A stretch of DNA of 37,644 bases from a virus, in IMG/VR virus record IMGVR_UViG_3300045927_000142, positions 1 through 37,644 of that record. One strand, 5' to 3'. The position numbers and the translations under genes were made by a program. A model generated the notes under the pieces. That model saw nothing but the letters and a program-made list of their open reading frames with translations, searched no databases and was not told where the DNA came from. Positions 1-37,644 of this stretch are shown here, piece after piece. Position 1 is the stretch's first letter; every line of letters starts with the position of its first letter.

Positions 1-2194
1 CCTCGAACGAACCTTTCATCTTCTCCGCAATGTTGAACTCGGTGTAGATGCCGTCCTGGTCCGCGAACTCACTGAGCACCTGCAGCTCGATCTCTTCCGA
101 GATCCAGGCACACCACGGCCCGAGCGAATCCTGGTAGAGCTGCTTATGCTGTTCCTTGACGTTGGAGTTGTGGACGACGACGCCTTCCGCAATGAAGGAA
201 TGCGTGCCGTCCACGGTCAAGTCATACACGAGTTCCTGACGCGCCTGGTGATCGATCCGCACAATGGCGGAGAGTTGCGTCGTCTCACTCGCGAATCCGC
301 GGCCCCCCTGCCACGGATAGCGGCTGCCTTTGCGGGCGAAGGGCTGGCCCGCCGCCATCCGGCGTTGATACTCGGGCGTATGTGACCCGATCCGCCGATT
401 CGCGCCCGGATCCGAGCAGGTGAAGTTCCACTGAGAGAACGTGGCCATCCGGCCCGTCGGTAATCGTGTCTGCCCCCGTTGCTCCCGCAGGTTCGTCACG
501 GGCACCCCGACACTGAGGCAGAGATGCCAGATTTGTGAGAGCAACGGGCGACTGCACGAACTGAAGCTCAATCGCCCCAGGCGATCGCAACTGCCATCGG
601 CATCGAGAAATCCGCGCAGCAGCGCGAGACGATGCGTCGCCGGCAAGCCGAAGATCCAGCCCGGCACGCGCTTGGTGCGCGCGGTCCCGCTGAATCCCAG
701 CCGATCGAACTCACGCCCCACCGCAACGGACATCACCCGCGTCTGCCGGCCGCCTTCGATCAGATGCACGGGGCCACGAGTACCCGGGAGCTGATCCGGC
801 AGAAGCAGATCCTGCAACGTGCGGCGATACGCCGCCATGTACGGGGCGTGTTCGCCGCGCGCGATCTGGAGACCCACGGGCTCCCCGTGGACGCAGGTCA
901 CGTTCCCATCGCCGAGCAGCAGCCCACAGAGTTCAAGGAATCCCTCCGTGGCCAGCCGTCCCGAGGGCAACCGGACGGTCGCCTCCTCAAGGGTCGGCAG
1001 TTGACGGAGCACCACGATGGTGTCCCCCACCTGGAGTTCGCCCGCCGGGACATACTGCGTGACCCACTGCTTGTGAGGCCGGCCGAGGGCGCGACGGTGC
1101 CCATCCGCCATCACCACGACCGGCGCCGGCTGCAGGACGGCGCGACGGGCCAGCACGCGATGCCGGCCATTGAGCCGCAGCGTGCGGTTGCCCGTATGCA
1201 GGCGCAAGATCTCGTCCTGGCCGGTACACCCCGATCGCGTCACCAGACTCAACGTCCAGTCGCCGGCCTCGGTCAAACTCCACACGCGATCGCCACGGCG
1301 AACCTCTGAAATCGGCCGCGGGCCCTCCTCGGTGAACACTTCGGTCTCGCCCGGCAGACAGAATGTCGCGTGGTCGAGAATGCCCACCATCGGCTGCGGA
1401 ATGTGATACGCGGCCGCACATTCCTCGCGCGACAACTTGCGCGCGCCGATGTATTCCGACTCTCGAGCCGAGTGCGAAACGGGCCGGAACGTCATGCCCT
1501 CGTCGAGCACCGGCGTCATGCCCGCGTTCGCGACGCCCGAGTACCGCATCTGCCACTGCTCGCGGAACGCCTGCTTCTGCTCGGGCGTCCACGGCTTCGC
1601 CGTCGCCGGCCGTTCGATGATGCCCTCGAACCGCGCCGCGTTCGTCCAGTACGCCGCCCGATATGCGGACGCCGCCGACTCTTCCGCCAGCGTCTGTCGC
1701 AAGGTTTCGATCGGTGAGAGGCCGCCGATCGGATCGTCAGGATTGAAACCGTGAAAGTAGACCACCGACGATGGGTCCAGCTCGCGCGGCGGCTTGTTGT
1801 CCGGCACGTACCAGAAGAACGCATCGGGCCGCAGCCAGCCCGACACTTCCACGGTCTCCGGCGGGAGTCGCAGTAACCCGAGGCGACCCGTCCGCTGGTC
1901 CTTCACCTTCAACCAGAACGCGCAAAAGTAGATCCCGAGGTCCTGCATCAAACTCTCGAACAACTTGTAACGGGTGACCCCCGGAAACGGGTGATTGATC
2001 GTCTGCTGCAACTGATGGTCATGCGCACGCAATCGGTCCGTGTCCGACACGCGACGAAACACGTGCAACCCGAGCTGCGCCAGGTTTCGTGCGAGGAAAT
2101 CCACGCAGATCCGAATGTTCGGTTGTGTCCGATAGAACGCCGCGTAACTCGCGGCCGACCACGGCGTGTGCGTCGCCGTCGCGTAACTGTTCAC
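1..2194 (-). CDS. HK97-type portal protein interrupted by an intein (3' end off the window)
   Basis: The portal forms the dodecameric ring at the capsid vertex through which DNA is packaged. This copy starts at a GTG at 2194 and stays open to base 1, where it leaves the window without a stop. Its extein parts match the complete portal at 36365-37582 almost residue for residue. Between Phe (codon 1361-1363) and Ser (codon 164-166) lies an in-frame insertion of exactly 398 codons that is absent from the other copy. Removing it restores HATF-SNVKEQHK as in the uninterrupted copy. The gene lies directly downstream of the terminase block on the same strand, as usual for HK97-like head modules. Seen directly: the open frame, the clean insertion and the near-identical flanks. 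Inferred: that this is an allele of the same locus and not a second portal gene. Confidence 0.9.
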   Translation of the reverse strand, partial: MNSYATATHTPWSAASYAAFYRTQPNIRICVDFLARNLAQLGLHVFRRVSDTDRLRAHDHQLQQTINHPFPGVTRYKLFESLMQDLGIYFCAFWLKVKDQRTGRLGLLRLPPETVEVSGWLRPDAFFWYVPDNKPPRELDPSSVVYFHGFNPDDPIGGLSPIETLRQTLAEESAASAYRAAYWTNAARFEGIIERPATAKPWTPEQKQAFREQWQMRYSGVANAGMTPVLDEGMTFRPVSHSARESEYIGARKLSREECAAAYHIPQPMVGILDHATFCLPGETEVFTEEGPRPISEVRRGDRVWSLTEAGDWTLSLVTRSGCTGQDEILRLHTGNRTLRLNGRHRVLARRAVLQPAPVVVMADGHRRALGRPHKQWVTQYVPAGELQVGDTIVVLRQLPTLEEATVRLPSGRLATEGFLELCGLLLGDGNVTCVHGEPVGLQIARGEHAPYMAAYRRTLQDLLLPDQLPGTRGPVHLIEGGRQTRVMSVAVGREFDRLGFSGTARTKRVPGWIFGLPATHRLALLRGFLDADGSCDRLGRLSFSSCSRPLLSQIWHLCLSVGVPVTNLREQRGQTRLPTGRMATFSQWNFTCSDPGANRRIGSHTPEYQRRMAAGQPFARKGSRYPWQGGRGFASETTQLSAIVRIDHQARQELVYDLTVDGTHSFIAEGVVVHNSNVKEQHKQLYQDSLGPWCAWISEEIELQVLSEFADQDGIYTEFNIAEKMKGSFE
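167..1360 (-). mobile_element. Intein with LAGLIDADG homing endonuclease inside the portal gene
   Basis: A 398-residue protein-splicing element. It begins with Cys1 (CLPGETEVF, block A) and ends VVVHN before extein Ser+1, so it has the penultimate His397 and terminal Asn398 of a class 1 intein. The N-terminal Hint region runs to about residue 120. Its block-B-like segment is LRLNGRHRVL, with Asn where Thr is usual and His67 kept. A two-motif LAGLIDADG endonuclease follows: LCGLLLGDG near residues 144-152 (Asp151) and LRGFLDADGS near 248-257 (Asp255). Block F is VYDLTVDGTHSFIAEG, residues 378-393. The frame has no stop and both endonuclease Asp are present, so splicing and homing are probably active. 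Known family: Hint/DOD inteins in phage packaging and replication proteins. The intein-free allele is at 36583-37644. Confidence 0.95.
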
Positions 2195-2957: not shown

Positions 2958-4646
2958 TCACCAAACTACCACGAGGTCCGGGTCTTCCGCCGGCGGCACG
3001 GACGTCGCCCGGAGCATCAGGTTCCACGCAATCGCCAGGGCAATCACCGGGTCGATGCGCCCTCGACTCTTTTTCTTCACCGGATAGATGTTGTCCTTCC
3101 CGTCGCGCTGCACCACGGCATTGCCCACGCAATACAGCATCAACGGGTCATCCTGCGCGTCGACCTGGCCGGCGAGCACCGCCGCCTCGAGCGCCAAGCA
3201 CCCGCTCGACATCGCCTGATAGGACTGCGCCACCTCGAGAATCTCGTCCTCCGCGAACCCGTCGTCCTGCACCAACTGCGTCACGAGCTGGTCCGCGTGC
3301 CACGGATCGAACCCCACCTTCACGATCGTGGCGTGCGTGCGCAGCCACACCAGCGTCTCGCGAATCACCCGGTGATCGATGCGGGTGCCCGGCACCGTGC
3401 GCAACCACCCGTCCTCGACCCACTGCGGATAGGGCGCACGGTCGCGCAGGCCACGCTCGGCCAACGTCTCGTCCGGTGTCCACATCCAGCGGAGCGTGCG
3501 CCACGTGTCATGGTGCTCCGTCGGCGGAAACAACGCGACCAAGGCCATCAGGTCATTCTTCGCCGCCAGATCGACGCCGACGTAACAGGACTCCCCCGCG
3601 AGGTCTTCGTAGGTCCAATCGGTGTGCTGGCCACGTCGCCAGCCGTCGAGTGACAACCAGGGCGAGCTGGCCATGATCCACAGGTTCAGATGCTTCTGTT
3701 TGTACGCGGCGGCCGCACCTGGCATCCCGAGCGCCTTGATCACTTTGTTCTTCAGGTCGTCCGGCTTCACCGATACGCCGTAATTGGGATTCGCTTTCCG
3801 CGCCGTCGCTTCCGTCGTCCAATCGTCCTCCGGGTCGGCGTGCGCAATGAACGCGAAGTACGTCTCGTCCACCAGCGTGCGTTCCAAAATCTGGCACGCA
3901 TAATCGTGTTCCTGGCCCCCGGGCGACACCGGATTGTCGCCGGCCGTCGTGATCTTGAAGACGAGCGGCTGCCGACGCGCGCCCGTCGCCGTCTCGAGCA
4001 CGTCGATCATCCCGCGATCTTTGTAGGCGTGCAGCTCGTCCAGGCTGATGAAGTGCGGGTTCAGCCCATCCGTCGAGTCTTCATCCGCGCCCAGCGGCTC
4101 CAGCTTCTGCGCCGTTTCCTCGCGGTGCAGGTTCACCGTCAACACACTGATGCGCGAGCGCAGACCGCTCGACATCACGAGCCGCCGGCAATCGCTCCAC
4201 ACGATCTTGGCCTGGTCGCGCTTCGTGGCCGCGCAGTAGCCCTCGGCTCCTGGCTCTCCGTCGAAGAACGTCAGATAGAGCGCCATCACCGCGTCTTCGA
4301 GCGACTTGCCTTGCTTGCGCGGCAGCTCGTTGTAGGCGTGCCGGAATCGACGGAGCTCGGTCTCGACGTGGACCCACCCGACAATCGAGCCGAGGCGGAA
4401 CTGCTGATGCGGTTCCCACCGGATGAATTGTCCGGCCCACTCGCCCTTGTAGTGTTTCAGCCGCTCACCGAACCGCAGGAAGCGCTCGACCCGCGCGAGG
4501 TCCAGGCGGAACGGAAACGCGCGCGAGTCCTCGGCCTCGCGATCGCGCAGGTGCCGCGCACACGCGAGCCGATGGTACTTGCCGGCCGGAATCCGCCCAC
4601 GTGTGACGTCTCGCGCGTATGCGTCAATCGGATGTCGCCGCCTCAT
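2958..4646 (-). CDS. terL: Terminase large subunit (TerL), HK97/Terminase_1 type
   Basis: ATP-driven DNA-packaging motor and headful nuclease; it docks on the portal. From Met at 4646 (MRRRHPIDAYA, the usual beginning of this family) the protein is 562 residues. Visible parts: the N-terminal ACARHLRDRE motif; a deviant Walker A (RKQGKS, about 110-115); Walker B with catalytic Glu (ISLDELHA, Asp203 Glu204); coupling motif ITTAG near 232; and the RNase-H-like nuclease acidic residues at GVDLAAK (Asp359), FDPW (Asp447) and RGRIDP (Asp532). The frame is open for 31 more codons upstream (to 4739), but those are low-complexity and overlap a possible antisense gene, so I prefer 4646. It is followed closely by small genes and portal. 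Confidence 0.93.
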   Translation of the reverse strand: MRRRHPIDAYARDVTRGRIPAGKYHRLACARHLRDREAEDSRAFPFRLDLARVERFLRFGERLKHYKGEWAGQFIRWEPHQQFRLGSIVGWVHVETELRRFRHAYNELPRKQGKSLEDAVMALYLTFFDGEPGAEGYCAATKRDQAKIVWSDCRRLVMSSGLRSRISVLTVNLHREETAQKLEPLGADEDSTDGLNPHFISLDELHAYKDRGMIDVLETATGARRQPLVFKITTAGDNPVSPGGQEHDYACQILERTLVDETYFAFIAHADPEDDWTTEATARKANPNYGVSVKPDDLKNKVIKALGMPGAAAAYKQKHLNLWIMASSPWLSLDGWRRGQHTDWTYEDLAGESCYVGVDLAAKNDLMALVALFPPTEHHDTWRTLRWMWTPDETLAERGLRDRAPYPQWVEDGWLRTVPGTRIDHRVIRETLVWLRTHATIVKVGFDPWHADQLVTQLVQDDGFAEDEILEVAQSYQAMSSGCLALEAAVLAGQVDAQDDPLMLYCVGNAVVQRDGKDNIYPVKKKSRGRIDPVIALAIAWNLMLRATSVPPAEDPDLVVVW

Positions 4647-5161
4647 GTCGCGTCGCGCTCGGTCGGCTCGGCGGGTCGGTGACGTCGGCCCGGAAGACGA
4701 TCGCGGCCCGCCAGAACGCCAAAAAAGGCGGCTGGCCAAAAGGACGGGTCGGACGAGGCTGGGCCTCAGGCTGGCAGGGCGTCAGGCTGGCCGGCCGTTC
4801 GGTCATAATCTCGTTATTGGGGGGGGTGCTTGACGCCTCAGTCGATGCCCGTTTCGGTTTCTCCCACTTGGGCCTAGGATCTGGAGCGCCGCCAGTTCAT
4901 CGGCCACCTTCCGCACAATCACTTCAGCCACGTTATACACGCCGCCCTCCAACAAGCCCGCCGCGAGTCGCAGTTGATCGGCGGGCGAGAGGACTACGAC
5001 CCGATCGTGTAAGTCCTGAACCGTCGCCCGCATTTCAGATCACCAGCCGCGTCGGAATCGCCGCGATCTCCGGCGACGGTTTTACCTGCTCCCGTAAATC
5101 CCGTTCAAATTCCGCCGCGTTGTCATCCTCATGCACGGCAATGCGCGTGAGAAAGGCGTAA
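4619..5161 (+). CDS. Possible antisense small protein with GKKGG-type motif (weak)
   Basis: A rightward open frame crossing the TerL start. Residues about 14-40 read ALGRLGGSVTSARKTIAA and then RQNAKKGGWPKGR, which resembles the basic motif (GGxxxSxxKxxAARxNxKKGGRPK) of many short phage and plasmid proteins. The same motif occurs in the protein at 6297-6587. The first roughly 60 codons could be a real small gene. The rest of the frame is antisense to the genes at 4803-5268 and looks like a shadow, so the true end is unclear. It could also be chance in a GC-rich region. Confidence 0.3.
   Translation: MRQSDVAASCRVALGRLGGSVTSARKTIAARQNAKKGGWPKGRVGRGWASGWQGVRLAGRSVIISLLGGVLDASVDARFGFSHLGLGSGAPPVHRPPSAQSLQPRYTRRPPTSPPRVAVDRRARGLRPDRVSPEPSPAFQITSRVGIAAISGDGFTCSRKSRSNSAALSSSCTAMRVRKA
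4803..5033 (-). CDS. Small hypothetical helical protein
   Basis: 76 residues. The first about 50 form a helical region (LHDRVVVLSPADQLRLAAG, then VAEVIVRKVADELAALQIL). The remaining tail is basic and Pro-rich and reads unlike coding sequence; a run of eight C at its end is a possible frameshift spot. It starts one base after the stop of the gene at 5035-5268 and so is translationally coupled to it. Function unknown. Confidence 0.55.
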   Translation of the reverse strand: MRATVQDLHDRVVVLSPADQLRLAAGLLEGGVYNVAEVIVRKVADELAALQILGPSGRNRNGHRLRRQAPPPITRL

Positions 5162-5357: not shown

Positions 5358-5849
5358 CTAGTGAGCTGTCGGCAGTCGAATCGGTGTGTCGAACTCCCCG
5401 AATGGATCGGCCGGCGCGTCATCCGGCACCTTCACCCGTGACCGGCTCGAAGGCGTCAAGCCGAGTTCCGGCCACAACTTCAGGCACCCACTCAGCGCCT
5501 TCGTCGCGATCGACAAATACGGGTTCGGCATAGGGTAGCCGCTCGGGGTCCTCACCAACATGCTCGATTGCTGCACCTTGCCGATAGCCTCGACGTACCG
5601 GGACCACTCCACACAGAGCGCAATCAGCGCATTGCGATCGGCCTCGGTGATCTGTCGGCCCTGGCGGAGCATCGGCGCGACCCGCTGCCATTCCTCCGTT
5701 GCGATGGGATTGTTCGCCAGCTCCACCGGCGGCGTGTCGAACCCCGGCGCGGGTGCCGGCAGCTTGGGTTCTGCGTCGTTCTGCGCTCGCTTGCCGGGGT
5801 TCCCTTCGAGTCGCCGCCGCCAGGATGGGTGCGGCTTTCGTCCGCGCAT
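5358..5849 (-). CDS. terS: Terminase small subunit, P27 family
   Basis: 163 residues. The N-terminus RGRKPHPSWRRRLEGNPGKR is the signature of the P27-type small terminase, which recognises the packaging site and recruits TerL. A helical core follows (EWQRVAPMLRQGRQITEADR) and a region ending SGYPMPNPYLSIATKAL and LKLWPELGLTPSSRSRV, the family's usual C-terminal pattern. Size and position two genes ahead of TerL fit. The upstream neighbour is a broken DUF5131-like fragment ending a few bases before this start. Confidence 0.9.
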   Translation of the reverse strand: MRGRKPHPSWRRRLEGNPGKRAQNDAEPKLPAPAPGFDTPPVELANNPIATEEWQRVAPMLRQGRQITEADRNALIALCVEWSRYVEAIGKVQQSSMLVRTPSGYPMPNPYLSIATKALSGCLKLWPELGLTPSSRSRVKVPDDAPADPFGEFDTPIRLPTAH

Positions 5850-8477: not shown

Positions 8478-8899
8478 GATGGAGCAAACTCCCACGGTTT
8501 CACGTACGGTCCAGCCATGAACAAGGTCCAGCAATCGTTCTCCAAGAGTTCCACGCGGTGTCGGTCATCAGCCGTCAGCAGGTTCACGTCACCTGGCTGA
8601 TACACGCGCGTCGTCTGCGTTCCGTCGCGGCTGCACCGGATCTCCCGATACCCGCCGACCAGTATCAGGCTGGCGCTCCACAACCACGGATGCGAGTGCA
8701 CCTGGTCTGCGCCGTCGCTGCTGACAAAGTGATGTAGGAAGATCGCCGCCTTCACCCGACGCCGCACGTGCGGTGCCCATCCCGCGGCAAAGTACCTCCG
8801 CAGATACGGGCGACCATCGCGCTTGATGTCTTGATGGCTCAGCACCCGCGAGAGTTCCACGCACCACGCGCGCGCGTTCGCCAGGTCACCGCCGGGCAT
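8471..8899 (-). CDS. Cupin-like phage protein
   Basis: 142 residues from ATG 8899. After YLRRYFAAGW comes IFLHHFVSSDGADQVHSHPW, then SLILVGGYREI and PGDVNLLTADDRHRVEL. The spacing of HxHPW, the Gly turn, PGD and the later His is that of a single-domain cupin with a His-based metal site. Cupin-like proteins of this layout occur in phages without a known substrate. It overlaps the HNH gene upstream and the small helical gene downstream. Confidence 0.7.
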   Translation of the reverse strand: MPGGDLANARAWCVELSRVLSHQDIKRDGRPYLRRYFAAGWAPHVRRRVKAAIFLHHFVSSDGADQVHSHPWLWSASLILVGGYREIRCSRDGTQTTRVYQPGDVNLLTADDRHRVELLENDCWTLFMAGPYVKPWEFAPSC

Positions 8900-12982: not shown

Positions 12983-13391
12983 CAATCTCGCACACACACC
13001 GCGCACACACACCGGATCTGGACATGCCATATTTCGGCCTAATTTTGATACTCAGTGAAACGGGTCTGTGTGCGCGGGCGCGAGGGCGAATCGCTGGAAG
13101 TGCTTGATTGTAAAGGCTTGAACGGCTGCTGTGGCGCCGCCCAGGCACGGCTCAGAGGGCCGTGCGCCCGCCACGTCGACCCCTGATTTTGTTGATCGAA
13201 TCTCACGCGCATACACAGTTCGCACACACAACACACAGATTAGGCGCGCAATTCAGGACCCGATTGAACCTGTCCGACTCTTCGTCGCGATCTGGCGCGA
13301 CGCGCCAGGCCGCGGCCCGGCTCGTCGGACGTGAGACACTTGAGTCGACTGGAAAGGCGGGACGGGAACCTCCCGTGCCAGGTCGGCCGGA

Positions 13392-14153
13392 TCATGAGAC
13401 TTTCGCCCGAGGTATACTTAATCGACGATTAAGTATACTTTTGCGTTTCTTCACCGAGATCAGCGTGATTCCCCAATGCTTCGCTAAGGCCTTTTCATTG
13501 CCCTGAAACGTCGCGAGATCCCGCGCCCATTGTTCATGGTTTCCCGGCGGCCGACCGTCACGCTGGCCGGTGCGCTTTCGCAATTCATCAATCACGTAGC
13601 GGATTTCGGTCGCATTACTGGTCCGCCGCACAATGCTCTCGACCAGGTGGTCGAGATGCGCGCGTCGATCCCGCACGGTCCGTCGACGCCGCTCCTGGGC
13701 CCGTTTCTCAAACGTGAGGCCGATCTTGGCGCGCGTAATCGCGCGACTCCCAACGGGGTGCTTTCCCTCCGTCCACCCGTGGCGCGACCAGGAGGCGGTC
13801 AAGCTGTCCGCCGCATGGGGATGGGCGGCGATGACGGCGTCAAGGGATCGGCGATAGCGGGTCTGACCCGTGCGCGACCGATCCATCGCGCTCGCCAGTT
13901 CGCTTCGTTCGTCCGGTGTCACATAGAAGCGCGCGACATCGTGGGCATCGACCGCTTGCAGTGCCAAAAAGTAATCAAATTCGCCAGGCTGAAACTGATA
14001 GACGCCGGTCGCGTCCCGGTAGTGGCGCCAATTCGCTGACCGCAACATCGCCATCGTCGCGTGCGTCAGCTCCCCGAGGCGGCCCATATTGGGGACGGCG
14101 CGTGCGAAGCGGTCGACCTGCTCGCCGTGCAGACGGAGCGCTTTGGTGTTCAT
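13392..14153 (-). CDS. Unknown protein coupled to the HNH-helicase gene
   Basis: 253 residues from ATG 14153, overlapping the helicase stop (ATGA), so the two are almost certainly made together. Mostly helical and basic. N-terminal half: RFARAVPNMGRLGELTHATM, an aromatic patch around YRDATGVYQFQPGEF and YFLALQAVDAHD. A strongly basic helix follows (FEKRAQERRRRTVRDRRAHL). The C-terminal end, WARDLATFQGNEKALAKHWG followed by ITLISVKKRK, resembles a helix-turn-helix. A 27-base perfect palindrome lies in its last codons. No family recognised; DNA binding is likely. Confidence 0.7.
   Translation of the reverse strand: MNTKALRLHGEQVDRFARAVPNMGRLGELTHATMAMLRSANWRHYRDATGVYQFQPGEFDYFLALQAVDAHDVARFYVTPDERSELASAMDRSRTGQTRYRRSLDAVIAAHPHAADSLTASWSRHGWTEGKHPVGSRAITRAKIGLTFEKRAQERRRRTVRDRRAHLDHLVESIVRRTSNATEIRYVIDELRKRTGQRDGRPPGNHEQWARDLATFQGNEKALAKHWGITLISVKKRKSILNRRLSIPRAKVS
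13412..13438. repeat. 27-bp perfect palindrome within the 3' end of a coding region
   Basis: GTATACTTAATCG, a single A, then its exact reverse complement: 13-base arms with a one-base centre, AT-rich in a GC-rich genome. It lies about 20 bases before the stop of the gene at 13392-14153 and encodes the symmetrical peptide SILNRRLSI. No T run follows on either strand, so it is not an intrinsic terminator. A dimeric regulator site is the simplest reading; the HTH-like end of the same gene's product is a candidate binder. Confidence 0.85.
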
Positions 14154-16261
14154 GATTCGTCTGCCGTTTGCGCCCAGCGCGGCAACGGCGTCCCCGTGTC
14201 CTGGCAATACCGACGAATGCGCTCCAGAGCGACCATCCGGGCGCGCTGGAGCTGGTCCGGTGTGGCATCGTCGAGTTTACGAATGCTGGCTTGCCGGTAG
14301 ATGTCGGCAATAAAATGGTCGACCGGTTGCCCGCCGTGCTTCGCTGGAAACTGCGCCCACCAGCGACTCGCCAAGATCACCTGCTGTCGAATCAGGGTGT
14401 GATGCTCGCGGGCGGTCAACGGCCGCGTCTGGGGTGCTGGCCGATCGACGACCGCCACGGGCCGCACAGCCCCGACCGCGATCGGTTGATCGAACGGGCG
14501 GGCTCGATTGTACCGATCGAGGAACTCCGCGAAGCGCGGCCAGAGCGATTCCGGGAGATTCAGGTCGCGGAGGATGGGCGTCAGCAGATCCTGCACTGCC
14601 GGATCGATATCGAACGTGCCGGCCGTCGTGATCGCCGACACGACTTCCAGCGCGGCATCGCGCACCCCGACGAGATCCTTATCAGGAAATCCGGGACCTT
14701 CAGGTCCTTGGGGTCCACGAGGTCCCTCCGGTCCTGGCGGCCGGACTTCAATGTCATGGACCATCGGCGCCAGGATGTTCGTAAATTCCTGGATCAGCTC
14801 CGGGATATCCGGCAGGATGATCGCCGTCGTCAGCGGATACCCGAGCCGCTCACGTTCCCACGTCGTCACTCGTTGCCCGCGCGCCACGACCTGTCGGATG
14901 TACTGCGCCGTGAGGACGTTGGTGGCATAGGTCACGACGCAAATGTCCGGACAGTCATAGCCTTCGCCCGCCATCCCCACTGTGCAAAGCACGCCCACGC
15001 GGGTCTTTTTGCGGAAATCTTCGAGACGCCGGTACGCGTCCTCGCCGTCATCGGAGACCACGCATTCGGCCAAAGGCTGTAACCGGCGCGCGACCATCTG
15101 CTGATCGACTTCCTTCGCGAAGGCTCTCGCCATGTCCTGACGATGCGTCACAATCAGCGCCTTGACCGGGGCGCCGCGACTGTCTCGATAGCGGCGTTGG
15201 AGCTGATCGAGTGTGACGGCCACTAATTGTGTGATCCATTCGTCGCGCAGATTAAGACGGCGAAGGGCGACACGTGCCGTGTCATCGGTGAGATCGGCGA
15301 TCGCCGTCTCGGTGACTTCCGCGGTCTTGAGATCGACGATGTCGACCGTCGCGCCCACCCGAAAGAGGTCCGGCGGCCGCAAGAGACCTTCGCGCACCAG
15401 CCGTTCGGAATGAATCGCGTAGGTCGCAATGGCCTGAATGCGTGGCTCCCCATGTTCGCCGACGACATCCTCGTATTGCACGGTCGAAATACGTTCGGCG
15501 GGTGAGGTGCGGAACAGCGTCCCGGAGAGATTCAGGACGTGGACATTGAGTCCTGTCCGCAAGTCCCCCACGAGTTCGCGGATGGTTTTTGCCCAGGCGG
15601 CGCCGCCGGTGTCGTCATTGACTGGCTGTCCGAGATGGTGGACTTCATCGAGAATCACGAGTGTCGACGTGTCGCGGAGGGCATCGCGATGCCGTTCACG
15701 AACCGTGGGTGTGAGTAGGCCCTGGTACGTGGTACACACGCCATCCATCCGGCTGAGTTCGCGCCCGCTGCCGCGGGCTCCCTCATGCACGTCGAGGGCG
15801 ATATGACAGTCGTTCAGGAGCGCCTTCGCCCATTGATTCACGAGCGGCACGCGTGGGACGACGACGAGCACGCGGCTCCACAGCGCCGCGTCTTGTCCGA
15901 CCGCGAAGACGTTGCCGGCGAAGAGTGTCTTTCCGCCACCTGGTGCCGCCATGACGGTCGCGACGCGCTGCATCGTGATCGCTTCCAACACGATCGCGAG
16001 CGCTTCCTCCTGCCAGGCCCGCAACTGGACCCGCGTGTCCCGGACATCTCGATTGCCATATCTGAGATTGCACGGGGCACACCAAGCCTCGAGATTCGAC
16101 ATGATTGGCGGCCCGCCGTGGCTCGCCGCGCGGAGATGCGCGACGTGAAAGGTCTCGAGGTCGATAGGTGCCTGGCAGCCTTGCCGTTGGCACTGGCTCC
16201 CGCTCAAAAAGAACAGTTGCCGGCGGTCACCGGGGGAAATGCGCCGAGAATACCGTGACAT
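14150..16261 (-). CDS. HNH nuclease-SF2 helicase fusion with a collagen-like linker
   Basis: 703 residues. Residues 15-75 form an HNH/zinc domain: Cys24, Cys29, HVAHLRAASHGG (His39, His42), NLEAWCAPCN (Cys61, Cys64). A superfamily 2 helicase follows: AAPGGGKT (105-112), DEVH (205-208), SGT (246-248), TVGMAGEGYDCP (428-438) and QVVARGQR (457-464). Residues 508-526 are Gly-X-Y collagen-like (PGPEGPRGPQGPEGPG). A helical C-terminal domain of about 175 residues remains unassigned. The layout recalls restriction-type or defence helicase-nucleases more than a replicative helicase. It lies next to the integrase, the usual place for accessory cargo, and is coupled to an unknown basic partner. A role in defence or superinfection exclusion is inference. 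Confidence 0.85.
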   Translation of the reverse strand: MSRYSRRISPGDRRQLFFLSGSQCQRQGCQAPIDLETFHVAHLRAASHGGPPIMSNLEAWCAPCNLRYGNRDVRDTRVQLRAWQEEALAIVLEAITMQRVATVMAAPGGGKTLFAGNVFAVGQDAALWSRVLVVVPRVPLVNQWAKALLNDCHIALDVHEGARGSGRELSRMDGVCTTYQGLLTPTVRERHRDALRDTSTLVILDEVHHLGQPVNDDTGGAAWAKTIRELVGDLRTGLNVHVLNLSGTLFRTSPAERISTVQYEDVVGEHGEPRIQAIATYAIHSERLVREGLLRPPDLFRVGATVDIVDLKTAEVTETAIADLTDDTARVALRRLNLRDEWITQLVAVTLDQLQRRYRDSRGAPVKALIVTHRQDMARAFAKEVDQQMVARRLQPLAECVVSDDGEDAYRRLEDFRKKTRVGVLCTVGMAGEGYDCPDICVVTYATNVLTAQYIRQVVARGQRVTTWERERLGYPLTTAIILPDIPELIQEFTNILAPMVHDIEVRPPGPEGPRGPQGPEGPGFPDKDLVGVRDAALEVVSAITTAGTFDIDPAVQDLLTPILRDLNLPESLWPRFAEFLDRYNRARPFDQPIAVGAVRPVAVVDRPAPQTRPLTAREHHTLIRQQVILASRWWAQFPAKHGGQPVDHFIADIYRQASIRKLDDATPDQLQRARMVALERIRRYCQDTGTPLPRWAQTADES

Positions 16262-16286: not shown

Positions 16287-17531
16287 TCACGCGGATTCCT
16301 TCTTCACGACGAGGTGCAACACGGCGGCGGGCTTCACGGGCGACTCGGGGCACCAGGCGAGGCGCATCTTCGCCACGGCCTCGGCGACGAGCTCCGGCAC
16401 AGCGGACTTCAGATACTGCTCGGTCGTCTTGATGTTGCTGTGCTGCGCGTACTTTTGCGTGGCATAGATGTCCTTTGACTGGCGCAGCAGCTCGGTCAAG
16501 AGACTGTGCCGGAGATCGTAGGGACGGCAGTTCTTCGGCACGGCCACGAGGAACTGCTCGAGGAGCTCGGTTTCGCCCCCGTCGCGCAGTTCGCGCTCGA
16601 CCCGCGTGAGCGCGCGCTGCCACGCCTCCCGCGGCGACGACTGGGCGAACCGGCCCCACAACCCCGCCGCGTCGAAGTCGCGGAGCGCCGCCACGGCCGG
16701 CGGGAGCAGGTCGACCCACTGCCCGGCCGCGCCGGTCCCCTTCTGTCGCGGCGGCTGATAGAGCTTCTCGTCGCGGAAGTTCACGTGGCGGCGTTCCAGC
16801 CGCATTAAGGACTTCGGCGGCAACCCCGTCCACGCCATCACCCGCAGGCGAATCTTCGTCGCGCTGACCCGCGACCGCGGCTGGCCCTTGATGGATCGCC
16901 CGAGATCCGCCAAGGCGGCGAGCAGCCGCATGACGATCGGGATCGGGATGGCGCGCGGCTCCGGCCGGCGTGGAGGGCCGACCGGCCCGATCTGGTCCGT
17001 CGGCAGGGCCACATCGAGATCGCCGTCGGGGTTGAGCTCGCGCTCGAGGACCTTTGCGAGCGCGCGACGGCGATGCTTCACCGTGGAGACCGAGAGCTTC
17101 GCCTTCCGCCAGGCCAGCAGTTGCTCCCGCACGTGCGCGCGGCGGATCTGCTCGAGCGGGATCGCCGCCATGGGCTCCCGCCGCCACGCCGCCAGGAGAC
17201 ACCGCAGATCCTCGATGGGGCGATCGGCATCCGTGATCGGGGGGGATGGCTTCGGATGATCGGCCATCCAGCGATCGATCGCCGCGCCGAGCGTCCCGGC
17301 CGCGCTGCCGTCGGTGGCCCGTTGGCGGCGCAGATCCTCGAGCAGTTGCAGACGACACTTCACGAGCTCGCTACAGTTCTTCTTCGAGTAGGGAATGCCG
17401 TCGTCGTCGACGAGGGGAAATCGGGCGCGCGCTTCCCGCAGCGCGGCGCCAGATCCAATGCGGGCCAGCACGGTCACACCGTGCGCGTCGAGGTAGAGCC
17501 CCTGGCCGATGGTCTGCCGGGTGCGCGTCAT
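16287..17531 (-). CDS. int: Tyrosine-type integrase
   Basis: 414 residues. Catalyses site-specific insertion and excision between attP and attB. N-terminal arm-binding and core-binding helices span about residues 1-190. The catalytic domain begins near 195: KIRLRVMAWTGLPPKSLMRL (226-245), RPYDLRHSLLTELL (336-349, Arg341 His342), YAQHSNIKTTEQYL (361-374, His364 and nucleophile Tyr373). The first catalytic Arg, normally in TGLR, is replaced here by Pro, as in its degraded relative at 11812. Its stop lies 25 bases before the helicase start; upstream it overlaps the coiled-coil gene by ATGA. No attP core could be identified by eye. Confidence 0.9.
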   Translation of the reverse strand: MTRTRQTIGQGLYLDAHGVTVLARIGSGAALREARARFPLVDDDGIPYSKKNCSELVKCRLQLLEDLRRQRATDGSAAGTLGAAIDRWMADHPKPSPPITDADRPIEDLRCLLAAWRREPMAAIPLEQIRRAHVREQLLAWRKAKLSVSTVKHRRRALAKVLERELNPDGDLDVALPTDQIGPVGPPRRPEPRAIPIPIVMRLLAALADLGRSIKGQPRSRVSATKIRLRVMAWTGLPPKSLMRLERRHVNFRDEKLYQPPRQKGTGAAGQWVDLLPPAVAALRDFDAAGLWGRFAQSSPREAWQRALTRVERELRDGGETELLEQFLVAVPKNCRPYDLRHSLLTELLRQSKDIYATQKYAQHSNIKTTEQYLKSAVPELVAEAVAKMRLAWCPESPVKPAAVLHLVVKKESA

Positions 17532-17749
17532 CGGTTCAAACGGTCGCGGAGGGCGCGGATCTGCTCACCTTGCTCGACGATCAAGCGTTTGAGTTCGTCG
17601 AGCGTTTCGTTCAGGTCGCTGAGCGATTCCTCGAGTTCAGTCCGGCCCTCCCGGACTTCAGTTAAACCGCGCAGGATGATCTCATCGAGGCGCTTATCGG
17701 CCTGGCCGAGGCGATCGAGCATGTTCTTCACGTCGTCGTCGAGACTCAT
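17528..17749 (-). CDS. Short coiled-coil protein, paralogue of the gene at 6065-6253
   Basis: 73 residues, helical with heptads: MSLDDDVKNMLDRLGQADKR, DEIILRGLTEVREG, LNETLDELKRLIVEQGEQIR. Shares its start, the DEI-LRGL segment and ELKRLI with the 62-residue protein at 6065-6253. Its stop overlaps the integrase start. Likely to oligomerise; function unknown. Confidence 0.7.
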   Translation of the reverse strand: MSLDDDVKNMLDRLGQADKRLDEIILRGLTEVREGRTELEESLSDLNETLDELKRLIVEQGEQIRALRDRLNR

Positions 17750-18328: not shown

Positions 18329-18450
18329 AGCGCACAGAACTCAACAATATTCGCACAAAAGATAATCGTACACTAGTGCTCTTTTAAACTAACATCCCTC
18401 AGGCCCTTCGTCGGAGGCATCCCAGCGTCCCAATGGAGGGGGATTCCCGC
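18329..18450. promoter_or_regulatory. Divergent control region between leftward and rightward operons
   Basis: About 120 bases between the leftward zinc-ribbon gene and the rightward HTH gene. The stretch around 18340-18390 is AT-rich with -10-like words (GATAAT, TACACT) but no clear -35. GGAGGGGGA precedes the ATG at 18451, which sets that start. It must contain the rightward early promoter; exact elements are unresolved. Confidence 0.4.
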
Positions 18451-18750
18451 ATGTCGCAACCGGCGCCCGTCACCGACCTCGACTCGTTGCCCGTGATTCT
18501 CACCCTCAAGGAAATGTCGGCGCTCTACCGCGTCAGTCCGCTCACGATCCGGCGCGCGCTCTCGCTCGACAAATTCCGGCCACTCCCGTTCGAAAAATAC
18601 CCCTATCGCTGGCTCCGCGCCGACGTGCTGCGCGACCTCGCGACCCGCCGCCCGAAACTGCGTCAGCGCCGCCACGGCTTCGCGGCCGTCAAAGCCCGCC
18701 GTCAGGCGGCCGACGAGCAGGCCGCCGTCGCCCACGACAAGTCGCGATGA
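18451..18750 (+). CDS. Excisionase-like helix-turn-helix protein
   Basis: 99 residues from ATG 18451, preceded by GGAGGGGGA at good spacing (an in-frame ATG at 18433 lies ahead of that site and is less likely). LTLKEMSALYRVSPLTIRRA followed by a short wing (RPLPFEKYPYRWLRADVLRD) is the MerR-like winged helix of excisionase/HTH_17 proteins. A basic tail follows. As the first rightward gene, opposite the integrase operon, it could be the directionality factor or an early regulator. Confidence 0.75.
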   Translation: MSQPAPVTDLDSLPVILTLKEMSALYRVSPLTIRRALSLDKFRPLPFEKYPYRWLRADVLRDLATRRPKLRQRRHGFAAVKARRQAADEQAAVAHDKSR

Positions 18751-19265
18751 GCGGGCGGCTCGTCTCGGCCGTGTTTGAGTCGGCCCTTCCGGCCTGGCTC
18801 AAACCCTACGCGGCGGCCTATGCGTCATTCGCCGCCGACAATGGCACGCGTGTCTACCCGACCATCGGCACGATTGCGCTGATGGTCGGGCGGTGTGAAC
18901 GCTCCACGCAGTACGCCATCGCCGACCTGCGGCGGCGGCACATTCTCGAGCCCATCACCCCGGCCGGCCGCCACCAGGCGCCCCGGTATCGGTTCCACGC
19001 GGCGGGACTCCCGCAGGTCACGGACGGCGTGCAGCTTCAGTTGCTGGCCTTTTCGCGATCTCCACAGGGATTTCCACAGGCCGCGAAAAATCGGCCCAAT
19101 AAAACCGGGCCTCGATCCGCCTTTTCCACACTTTCCACAGGCAGGGGTGCAATGGGTTGCACCCCAGGGGTGCAATGGGTTGCACCCGATCCGTCAATAG
19201 ATCCTTCAGTACGTACTCGTACAACGCGCGCGCGCGCGAAGAGGACGGGCACGGAGGACCGATGA
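18747..19265 (+). CDS. Replication-initiator-like helix-turn-helix protein
   Basis: 172 residues, ATG overlapping the previous stop. The N-terminus (LPAWLKPYAAAYASFAADNG, TRVYPTIGTIALMVGR, RSTQYAIADLRRRHILEPI) is the winged-helix found in phage replication initiators and host-like HTH_36 proteins. The C-terminal third is low-complexity and its DNA holds repeated CCACA words and two hairpins, as expected when an origin lies inside the initiator gene (as in lambda O). No helicase loader follows. Confidence 0.7.
   Translation: MSGRLVSAVFESALPAWLKPYAAAYASFAADNGTRVYPTIGTIALMVGRCERSTQYAIADLRRRHILEPITPAGRHQAPRYRFHAAGLPQVTDGVQLQLLAFSRSPQGFPQAAKNRPNKTGPRSAFSTLSTGRGAMGCTPGVQWVAPDPSIDPSVRTRTTRARAKRTGTEDR
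19061..19187. other. Candidate replication origin inside the initiator gene
   Basis: Four related words occur: TCCACAGG (19061), TTCCACAGG (19072), TTTTCCACA (19122) and TTTCCACAG (19132), all close to the DnaA box TTATCCACA. They flank a short A-rich stretch (GAAAAATCGG, AATAAAAC). Two nearly identical hairpins follow: GGGGTGCAA-TGGG-TTGCACCCC (19144-19165) and its copy (19167-19187). Repeats, AT-rich stretch and location in the initiator gene fit a theta origin. Confidence 0.55.
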
Positions 19266-36364: not shown

Positions 36365-37582
36365 CTATGCCGCGTCCTCCGACGACACCAAGGCCTCGCT
36401 CGTCGATTCCTCCGGCGCCGCTTCACTCGGTGTCGTCTCCGCACCCATCGTCATGTTGAGCGGGGCAGCCAGGGCGTTCGCAGACGGATCGTCGTGGATG
36501 GCTGGCAGGTTCAACCGCGCGCGTCCTTCGTTCGCGGTCATGATCGGCCGGCCCACGAGTCTCGCGAGCGACACCGCCTGGTCCTCGAACGAACCTTTCA
36601 TCTTCTCCGCAATGTTGAACTCGGTGTAGATGCCGTCCTGGTCCGCGAACTCACTGAGCACCTGCAGCTCGATCTCTTCCGAGATCCACGCACACCACGG
36701 TCCCAGCGAATCCTGGTACAGCTGCTTGTGCTGTTCCTTCACGTTCGAGAACGTCGCGTGATCCAGGATGCCCACCATCGGCTGTGGAATGTGATACGCC
36801 GCCGCACATTCCTCGCGCGACAACTTGCGCGCGCCGATGTACTCGGACTCTCGAGCCGAGTGCGAGACCGGCCGAAACGTCATGCCCTCGTCGAGCACCG
36901 GCGTCATGCCCGCGTTCGCGACGCCCGAGTACCGCATCTGCCACTGCTCGCGGAACGCTTGCTTCTGCTCGGGCGTCCAGGGCTTCGCCGTCGCCGGCCG
37001 CTCGATGATGCCCTCGAAGCGTGCCGCGTTCGTCCAGTACGCCGCCCGATACGCGGACGCCGCCGATTCTTCCGCCAGCGTCTGCCGCAGCGTTTCGATG
37101 GGTGAGAGGCCACCGATCGGATCGTCAGGATTAAATCCGTGAAAGTAGACCACCGACGACGGGTCCAGCTCGCGCGGCGGTTTGTTGTCCGGCACATACC
37201 AGAAGAACGCATCAGGCCGCAGCCAGCCCGACACTTCCACGGTCTCCGGCGGGAGTCGCAGTAACCCGAGGCGACCCGTCCGCTGGTCCTTCACCTTCAG
37301 CCAGAAGGCGCAAAAGTAGATCCCGAGGTCCTGCATCAAACTCTCGAACAACTTGTAGCGGGTCACTCCTGGAAACGGGTGATTGATCGTCTGCTGCAAC
37401 TGATGGTCGTGCGCACGCAATCGGTCCGTGTCCGACACGCGCCGAAACACGTGGCACCCGAGCTGCGCCAGGTTCCGCGCGAGAAAATCCACGCAGATCC
37501 GAATGTTCGGTTGTGTGCGATAGAACGCCGCGTAACTCGCGGCCGACCACGGCGTGTGCGTCGCCGTCGCGTAACTGTTCAC
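36365..37582 (-). CDS. HK97-type portal protein, intein-free allele (complete)
   Basis: 405 residues from GTG 37582. IRICVDFLARNLAQLGCHVF, NHPFPGVTRYKLFESLMQDL, FHGFNPDDPIGGLSPIETLR, GMTFRPVSHSARESEYIGAR and EECAAAYHIPQPMVG are the ordered motifs of HK97 portals. The site occupied by an intein in the copy at 1-2194 is empty: HATF runs directly into SNVKEQHK (36746-36752). The C-terminus is acidic and Ser-rich. Placed upstream of the protease and capsid genes. Confidence 0.93.
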   Translation of the reverse strand: MNSYATATHTPWSAASYAAFYRTQPNIRICVDFLARNLAQLGCHVFRRVSDTDRLRAHDHQLQQTINHPFPGVTRYKLFESLMQDLGIYFCAFWLKVKDQRTGRLGLLRLPPETVEVSGWLRPDAFFWYVPDNKPPRELDPSSVVYFHGFNPDDPIGGLSPIETLRQTLAEESAASAYRAAYWTNAARFEGIIERPATAKPWTPEQKQAFREQWQMRYSGVANAGMTPVLDEGMTFRPVSHSARESEYIGARKLSREECAAAYHIPQPMVGILDHATFSNVKEQHKQLYQDSLGPWCAWISEEIELQVLSEFADQDGIYTEFNIAEKMKGSFEDQAVSLARLVGRPIMTANEGRARLNLPAIHDDPSANALAAPLNMTMGAETTPSEAAPEESTSEALVSSEDAA

Positions 37583-37644
37583 GCTCCGCGCGGCCGGCTT
37601 GTCACCGACTCGTTGGAATGAGCCGAGACTACGAACGATCGGCA
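36583..37644. repeat. Terminal repeat with bases 1-2256 (intein-free allele)
   Basis: Matches 1-2256 once the 1194-base intein is left out (1062 bases aligned). The first 106 bases (from 36583) and the last about 130 (to 37644) are identical or nearly so. In between there are scattered, mostly synonymous differences, densest around the intein site (11 in the 82 bases nearest it). A window closing a circle through two alleles would look exactly like this. Confidence 0.9.

Follow-up and report, generated by a model that had tools for sequence, protein, structure and literature searches.

An HNH-SF2 protein and its constant partner gene form a two-gene unit beside the integrase gene of a soil phage

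Gene layout of the virus record

The window, meaning the whole stretch of DNA that was analysed, is the virus record IMGVR_UViG_3300045927_000142 (37,644 nt), from a soil phage with a helicase gene beside its integrase gene. Along the minus strand, the genes run from the tyrosine integrase (P0002, 16287–17531; PF00589, 30.6 bits) to the helicase (P0001, 14150–16261), its partner (P0003, 13392–14153), and the small (5358–5849) and large (2958–4739) terminase subunits, while portal, protease, and capsid genes occupy the right end of the record. Except for an insert, the two record ends are repeats of each other at 95–96% DNA identity, which makes a nearly complete genome probable. Because the ends match this closely, two portal alleles seem to have been joined in one assembly: besides the right-end portal gene (36365–37642), a second copy lies at the left end (167–1360, minus strand) and holds a 398-aa in-frame intein-like insert that the right-end copy does not have. 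The insert starts with Cys, ends with His-Asn, contains two LAGLIDADG-like motifs, and weakly matched PI-PkoII and mini-inteins in the PDB.

The reading frame of P0001 starts with ATG and encodes 703 residues, as initially annotated, and its full-length relatives at 60–74% identity place it beyond chance. P0002, encoded on the same strand, stops 25 nt upstream, in agreement with the described position next to the integrase, and the two genes probably belong to the same operon. A small coiled-coil protein (17528–17749, minus strand; Pfam search) is tied to the integrase start by a 4-nt overlap. In locus L012, a relative is encoded immediately upstream of the helicase, and 4-nt overlaps likewise link the partner, HTH, and integrase genes. 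Divergent from the integrase, on the plus strand, are an excisionase-like gene (18433–18750; phrog_66) and an initiator-like HTH gene (18747–19265; weak HTH_36), both of which have relatives in L135, a locus with a related integrase. Tandem 23-nt repeats lie within the initiator-like gene of the window (19142–19187) and tandem 22-nt repeats within that of L135 (4808–4851); these are possible origin iterons. With one mismatch allowed, a search for a tRNA-like attachment site (GGTTCRANTCC) found 5 occurrences against 5.6 expected, and the promoter scan found none. An AT-rich palindrome with 13-nt arms and a 1-nt centre (13409–13441) falls within the final codons of the partner; it is terminator-like on the plus strand only and was not seen in the C-termini of relatives.

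The HNH-type domain and the SF2 motor of P0001

P0001 opens with an HNH-type zinc domain (residues 20–72; 16046–16204, minus strand), supported by alignment columns and by a PF01844 match at residues 27–71 that scores 24.6 bits against a cut-off of 21.4. The SF2 motor core follows (residues 77–500; 14762–16033, minus strand), with Pfam matches to ResIII (PF04851, residues 78–225; 52.7 bits, cut-off 22.5) and DEAD (35.3 bits, cut-off 26), and to Helicase_C below its cut-off only. All 46 aligned relatives share the Walker A motif A105-x-x-G108-x-G110-K111-T112, D205-E206-x-H208-H209 (DEVHH), G247-T248 of the SGT motif, and Q457...R461..R464 of the QVVARGQR motif. With Walker A, DExH, motif III, and motif VI all present, P0001 is, judged by its motifs, a member of the SF2 helicase superfamily. 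Both the HNH/zinc domain and the complete helicase motifs of the initial annotation were thus confirmed.

An AlphaFold2 model built from 42 sequences of the window and the fetched loci has a mean pLDDT of 88.2 and a pTM of 0.87. The nearest solved proteins to the motor by profile are archaeal XPBII, which works with the Bax1 nuclease (the best PDB match, E 6e-24, P0001 residues 73–439), and RadD (E. coli YejH), an SF2 repair ATPase (E 1.8e-19). RadD also ranks first in Foldseek and is the closest solved fold in VIA (Z 18.2, rmsd 5.3, 341 aligned), where rows within 1 of it, among them chromatin remodellers and XPB, count as ties. The RadD match spans only about residues 75–500, with ends near residue 513 (VIA) or 442 (profile); RadD itself has a C-terminal zinc ribbon. 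To our knowledge, RadD has neither an HNH domain nor a constant partner gene. P0001 resembles XPBII as a motor paired with a second protein, whereas its nuclease-like domain is fused and degenerate and its partner has no nuclease match. The label “DNA helicase” of phrog_16 is a family label; its matches (74.1 bits for P0001, 140 bits for the clade-2 protein of L007) cover the motor and not the HNH domain, the C-terminal domain, or the partner.

The C-terminal domain (residues 528–703; 14153–14680, minus strand) matched no Pfam family, in line with its initial description as unassigned, and was confidently modelled. Before it lies a linker (residues 507–523; 14693–14743, minus strand) whose Gly-X-Y stretch spans residues of about 508–522 and includes the sole internal segment with pLDDT under 50 (residues 514–523). 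The collagen-like Gly-X-Y linker noted earlier is present, yet it varies among relatives, and the collagen idea was rejected on that ground. A regular-expression scan found at least four Gly-X-Y triplets in only 2 of 81 sequences, the window and L002 (the latter with seven GPP triplets), and among the 13 aligned clade-1 proteins the site is filled by unrelated sequence, Pro/Thr-rich in L004, Gly/Ser-rich in L003, and acidic in L018. The stretch is simply a variable disordered linker and should not be credited with a function.

The HNH domain matches Cas9/IscB-type HNH nucleases and keeps their Cys cluster, His, and Asn; in contrast, the Asp of the triad is Ala or Ser throughout clade 1, the helicase clade of P0001. 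PMC6706240 gives the Cas9 triad as D839-H840-N863, with D839 and N863 as metal ligands and H840 as the general base, and describes the activity of D839A as substantially compromised. Mapped by spacing, this triad falls on P0001 residues 41, 42, and 65. Position 41 is Ala, a feature absent from the initial annotation, while His42, Asn65, and the zinc cysteines Cys24/29/61/64 are kept; the domain therefore has the HNH family profile and the zinc cysteines and not the Asp-His-Asn(His) active-site triad. Of the 13 clade-1 rows, 11 show Ala and 2 show Ser at this position, as compared to sister clade 2, where 32 of 33 rows show Asp and the remaining row has no HNH domain. His42, Asn56, Asn65, Cys24, Cys61, and Cys64 are kept in 13/13 clade-1 rows, and the second Cys column in 12/13. 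L002 was excluded from the helicase alignments, as a frameshift at about 8780–8860 splits its gene (intact relatives exist); outside the 13-row count, it likewise aligns with Ala at position 41. In the helicase tree, a single branch (100/100 support) sets clade 1 apart, compatible with either a single loss or a single gain of the Asp, the direction depending on the root. Since a metal-ligand Asp is missing clade-wide, nuclease activity of the P0001 HNH domain is doubtful, so that of the nuclease–helicase fusion first described, the HNH and SF2 domains stand and the nuclease does not stand firmly.

The partner gene and the distribution of the pair

P0003 encodes 253 aa, starts 4 nt inside the helicase end, and was not mentioned in the initial annotation. 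No Pfam family scored over the cut-off for it, and NCBIfam and PADLOC yielded no family; PHROG gave no convincing match (best E 0.036), and seven of its relatives (three from clade 1, four from clade 2) matched no PHROG family. Its model (pLDDT 89.4, pTM 0.65) has a C-terminus (residues 203–253) with mostly HTH-like VIA rows at Z 3–5 (up to 5.0). The N-terminal domain is helical and without a clear known fold, which need not mean that it is new. Foldseek returned a best E of 0.18, and the partner profile had no match to PDB sequences at E 1.

A four-member partner profile found the partner in 14 of 81 loci, namely all clade-1 loci and no others. It occurs once per record in 14/14 clade-1 records and starts 4–20 nt before the helicase end in 14/14 loci. 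The identity matrices of helicase and partner co-vary (rho 0.82 across 13 loci and 0.85 across 29 loci), and none of 1000 permutations reached as high. A second partner cluster occupies the same place in fifty further loci (clade 2); among the 46 of these 50 used for comparison, a downstream ORF is present in 45, and in the single exception, L032, the contig ends soon after. The four-row profile gave almost no match against one sequence, whereas the two partner families align by hhalign over 192 columns (probability 76%, P 2e-5), and therefore the families are likely kin that descend from one ancestral pair. The helicase is thus half of a two-gene unit with a constant partner, and the listed open PMC papers on HNH-SF2 phage fusions held no description of such a pair. 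Copies (L011 of L002, L019 of L003) and near copies (L025, L048, L052, L063) were dropped, and the clade counts omit loci without an HNH domain (L035, L042, L043, L046, L055, L060, L064, L071, L077, and others). The nine named loci carry a third helicase group, found beside two conserved genes that by appearance we label SbcCD-type nuclease subunits. Three clade-1 loci, L012 (8480–8710), L016 (7448–7708), and L017 (5753–5962), have a further small gene after the partner, with HTH matches in L012 and L016.

Tblastn recovered most of the helicase length from a single phage record out of 50,697, where the partner lies next to it. The clade-2 partner was recovered from 3 of 72,556 plasmid records, all three with a helicase hit as well; terminase and capsid annotations mark one of them, from Streptomyces atratus, as a phage-plasmid. 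Among 297 Acidobacteriota genomes, the partner occurs in one, the seed genome itself. In this Acidobacteria MAG (L085), a gene that we label serine-recombinase-like shares the contig with the pair, and no structural phage genes were seen by eye in the 39 kb examined. Upstream of the pair there (13055–14895) are an ATPase gene and a 197-aa gene that overlap by 4 nt and have no clear family.

Searches with the capsid, terminase, and integrase yielded 49 loci, and those from records at least 20 kb long, 21 in all (9 of them over 35 kb), were tested for the pair. None of the 21 has the helicase, the partner, or a ResIII match over the cut-off, and one weak HNH-only match occurs in the L108 record. 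The pair is therefore accessory, an optional element in these phages, and not needed in the related ones. L010, found via the helicase, combines the pair with a terminase that shares 61% identity with that of the window, so the pair is patchy rather than absent in this lineage. L135 has no pair and keeps the integrase (50%), the divergent excisionase-like gene (64%), and the initiator-like gene (49%). This, together with the result for the 21 records and the location directly downstream of the integrase, supports the “cargo position” originally assigned.

Gene neighbourhoods and possible functions

Recombination or replication genes lie beside the pair in 6 of the 14 clade-1 loci (L012, L013, L014, L016, L017, and L018), so the homologues are not confined to replication modules. 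These neighbours include RecT over the cut-off in L012; an initiator, a RecE-like nuclease, and a weak RecT-like gene in L016; RusA in L013 and L017, the latter also with a RecT-like gene; an initiator in L018; and a replication protein in L014 and L017. The window and L002 have the integrase as the immediate same-strand neighbour, in L012 one small gene intervenes, and the distance is about 2 kb in L008, where an ArdC-like anti-restriction gene (PF08401) adjoins the pair and we also read a HigBA-like pair. In Saccharomonospora phage PIS 136, the genes around the pair are those for Pol III epsilon, an exonuclease, VRR-NUC, an integrase, and Pol III alpha. Across 104 neighbour proteins, the most frequent PHROG names include integrases (5), excisionase (3), and RecT, RusA, initiator, and endolysin (2 each), while PADLOC at E 1e-5 named mad1 twice and homing endonuclease, mad8, SspH, and ZorE once each, with no enrichment of known defence genes. 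These counts draw on a small number of loci and on short flanking stretches.

We favour, at slightly below an even chance, an accessory two-gene cassette for phage DNA processing, that is, recombination or repair, over a role in defence. It is the best single reading because the HNH domain is likely inactive, the distribution is phage-bound, recombination genes are among the neighbours, and the fold is like that of RadD and XPB, which act in repair and recombination. RadD reportedly accelerates RecA strand exchange (PMC8887467). In the proposed working, DNA would be held by the zinc domain derived from HNH and by the C-terminal domain, the XPB/RadD-type motor would move along or remodel it with ATP, and the partner, with its HTH-like end in the window, would recruit or regulate the motor. 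The pair would most likely serve recombination, repair, or recombination-linked replication of phage DNA early in infection, and would not act as a nuclease effector. Against this, the closest loci (the window, L002, and L008) have the pair by the integrase and not by recombination genes, the 21 related records do without it, and the initiator-like gene with tandem repeats lies elsewhere in the window and is kept in the pair-less L135.

The initial annotation suggested a prophage-borne defence or exclusion system. In a rival reading of this kind, as defence or superinfection exclusion, a lysogen would express the cassette of the integrase operon, the partner would sense or bind invading DNA, and the motor would block it, with or without HNH cleavage. 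The integrase-operon position and the patchiness keep exclusion viable, and the ArdC-like gene of L008 and the serine-recombinase-like gene of the Acidobacteria MAG point the same way. However, P0001 matches no PADLOC model over its length (best PbeA, 32 bits, 140 of 672 residues), although a weak or missing match leaves room for a new system. Few neighbour proteins have PADLOC names, six loci lie by recombination or replication genes, the HNH Asp is lost, and the partner is rare in the sampled bacterial genomes; the proposal was thus not borne out, and we consider it somewhat unlikely. An HNH domain that cuts despite Ala41, using His42, Asn65, and another metal ligand, would agree with the conserved His, Asn, and Cys columns of clade 1, but the large loss of activity reported for Cas9 D839A makes it improbable.

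A role in assisting integration or excision, or in the control of lysogeny, is suggested by the place of the pair in the integrase operon and by the 4-nt overlaps in the window and L012 and is equally improbable, as an integrase over the cut-off is present in only 8 of 13 clade-1 and 10 of 32 clade-2 records, some of which may be fragments. The least probable reading, which we regard as very unlikely, makes P0001 the main replicative helicase and its partner a loader or initiator. Initiator-like neighbours in some loci and the lack of DnaB_C over the cut-off in all 13 clade-1 virus records would suit it, yet DnaB_C is also rare in relatives without the pair (1 of 21), so that a missing DnaB_C does not argue for a replacement. 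Moreover, DnaB accompanies the pair in 6 of 32 clade-2 records (as DnaB_C over the cut-off) and in PIS 136, and RadD is reported to have no helicase activity on branched DNA.

Beyond the favoured DNA-processing reading, it is conceivable, if rather unlikely, that the pair represents a phage-specific two-gene motor family, made up of an HNH-derived SF2 protein and an unnamed DNA-binding partner, in an undescribed DNA-processing or rival-exclusion pathway. One clade would then have converted its HNH domain from a cutter to a DNA clamp. HNH-bearing SF2 motors carry the automatic label “DEAD/DEAH box helicase family protein” and are easily taken for defence; the constant unnamed partner and the clade-wide loss of the HNH Asp offer a simple way to test if such fusions are nucleases at all. 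The pair occurs here and there in uncultured phages and hardly ever in cultured ones, which makes it a candidate for an unknown phage function.
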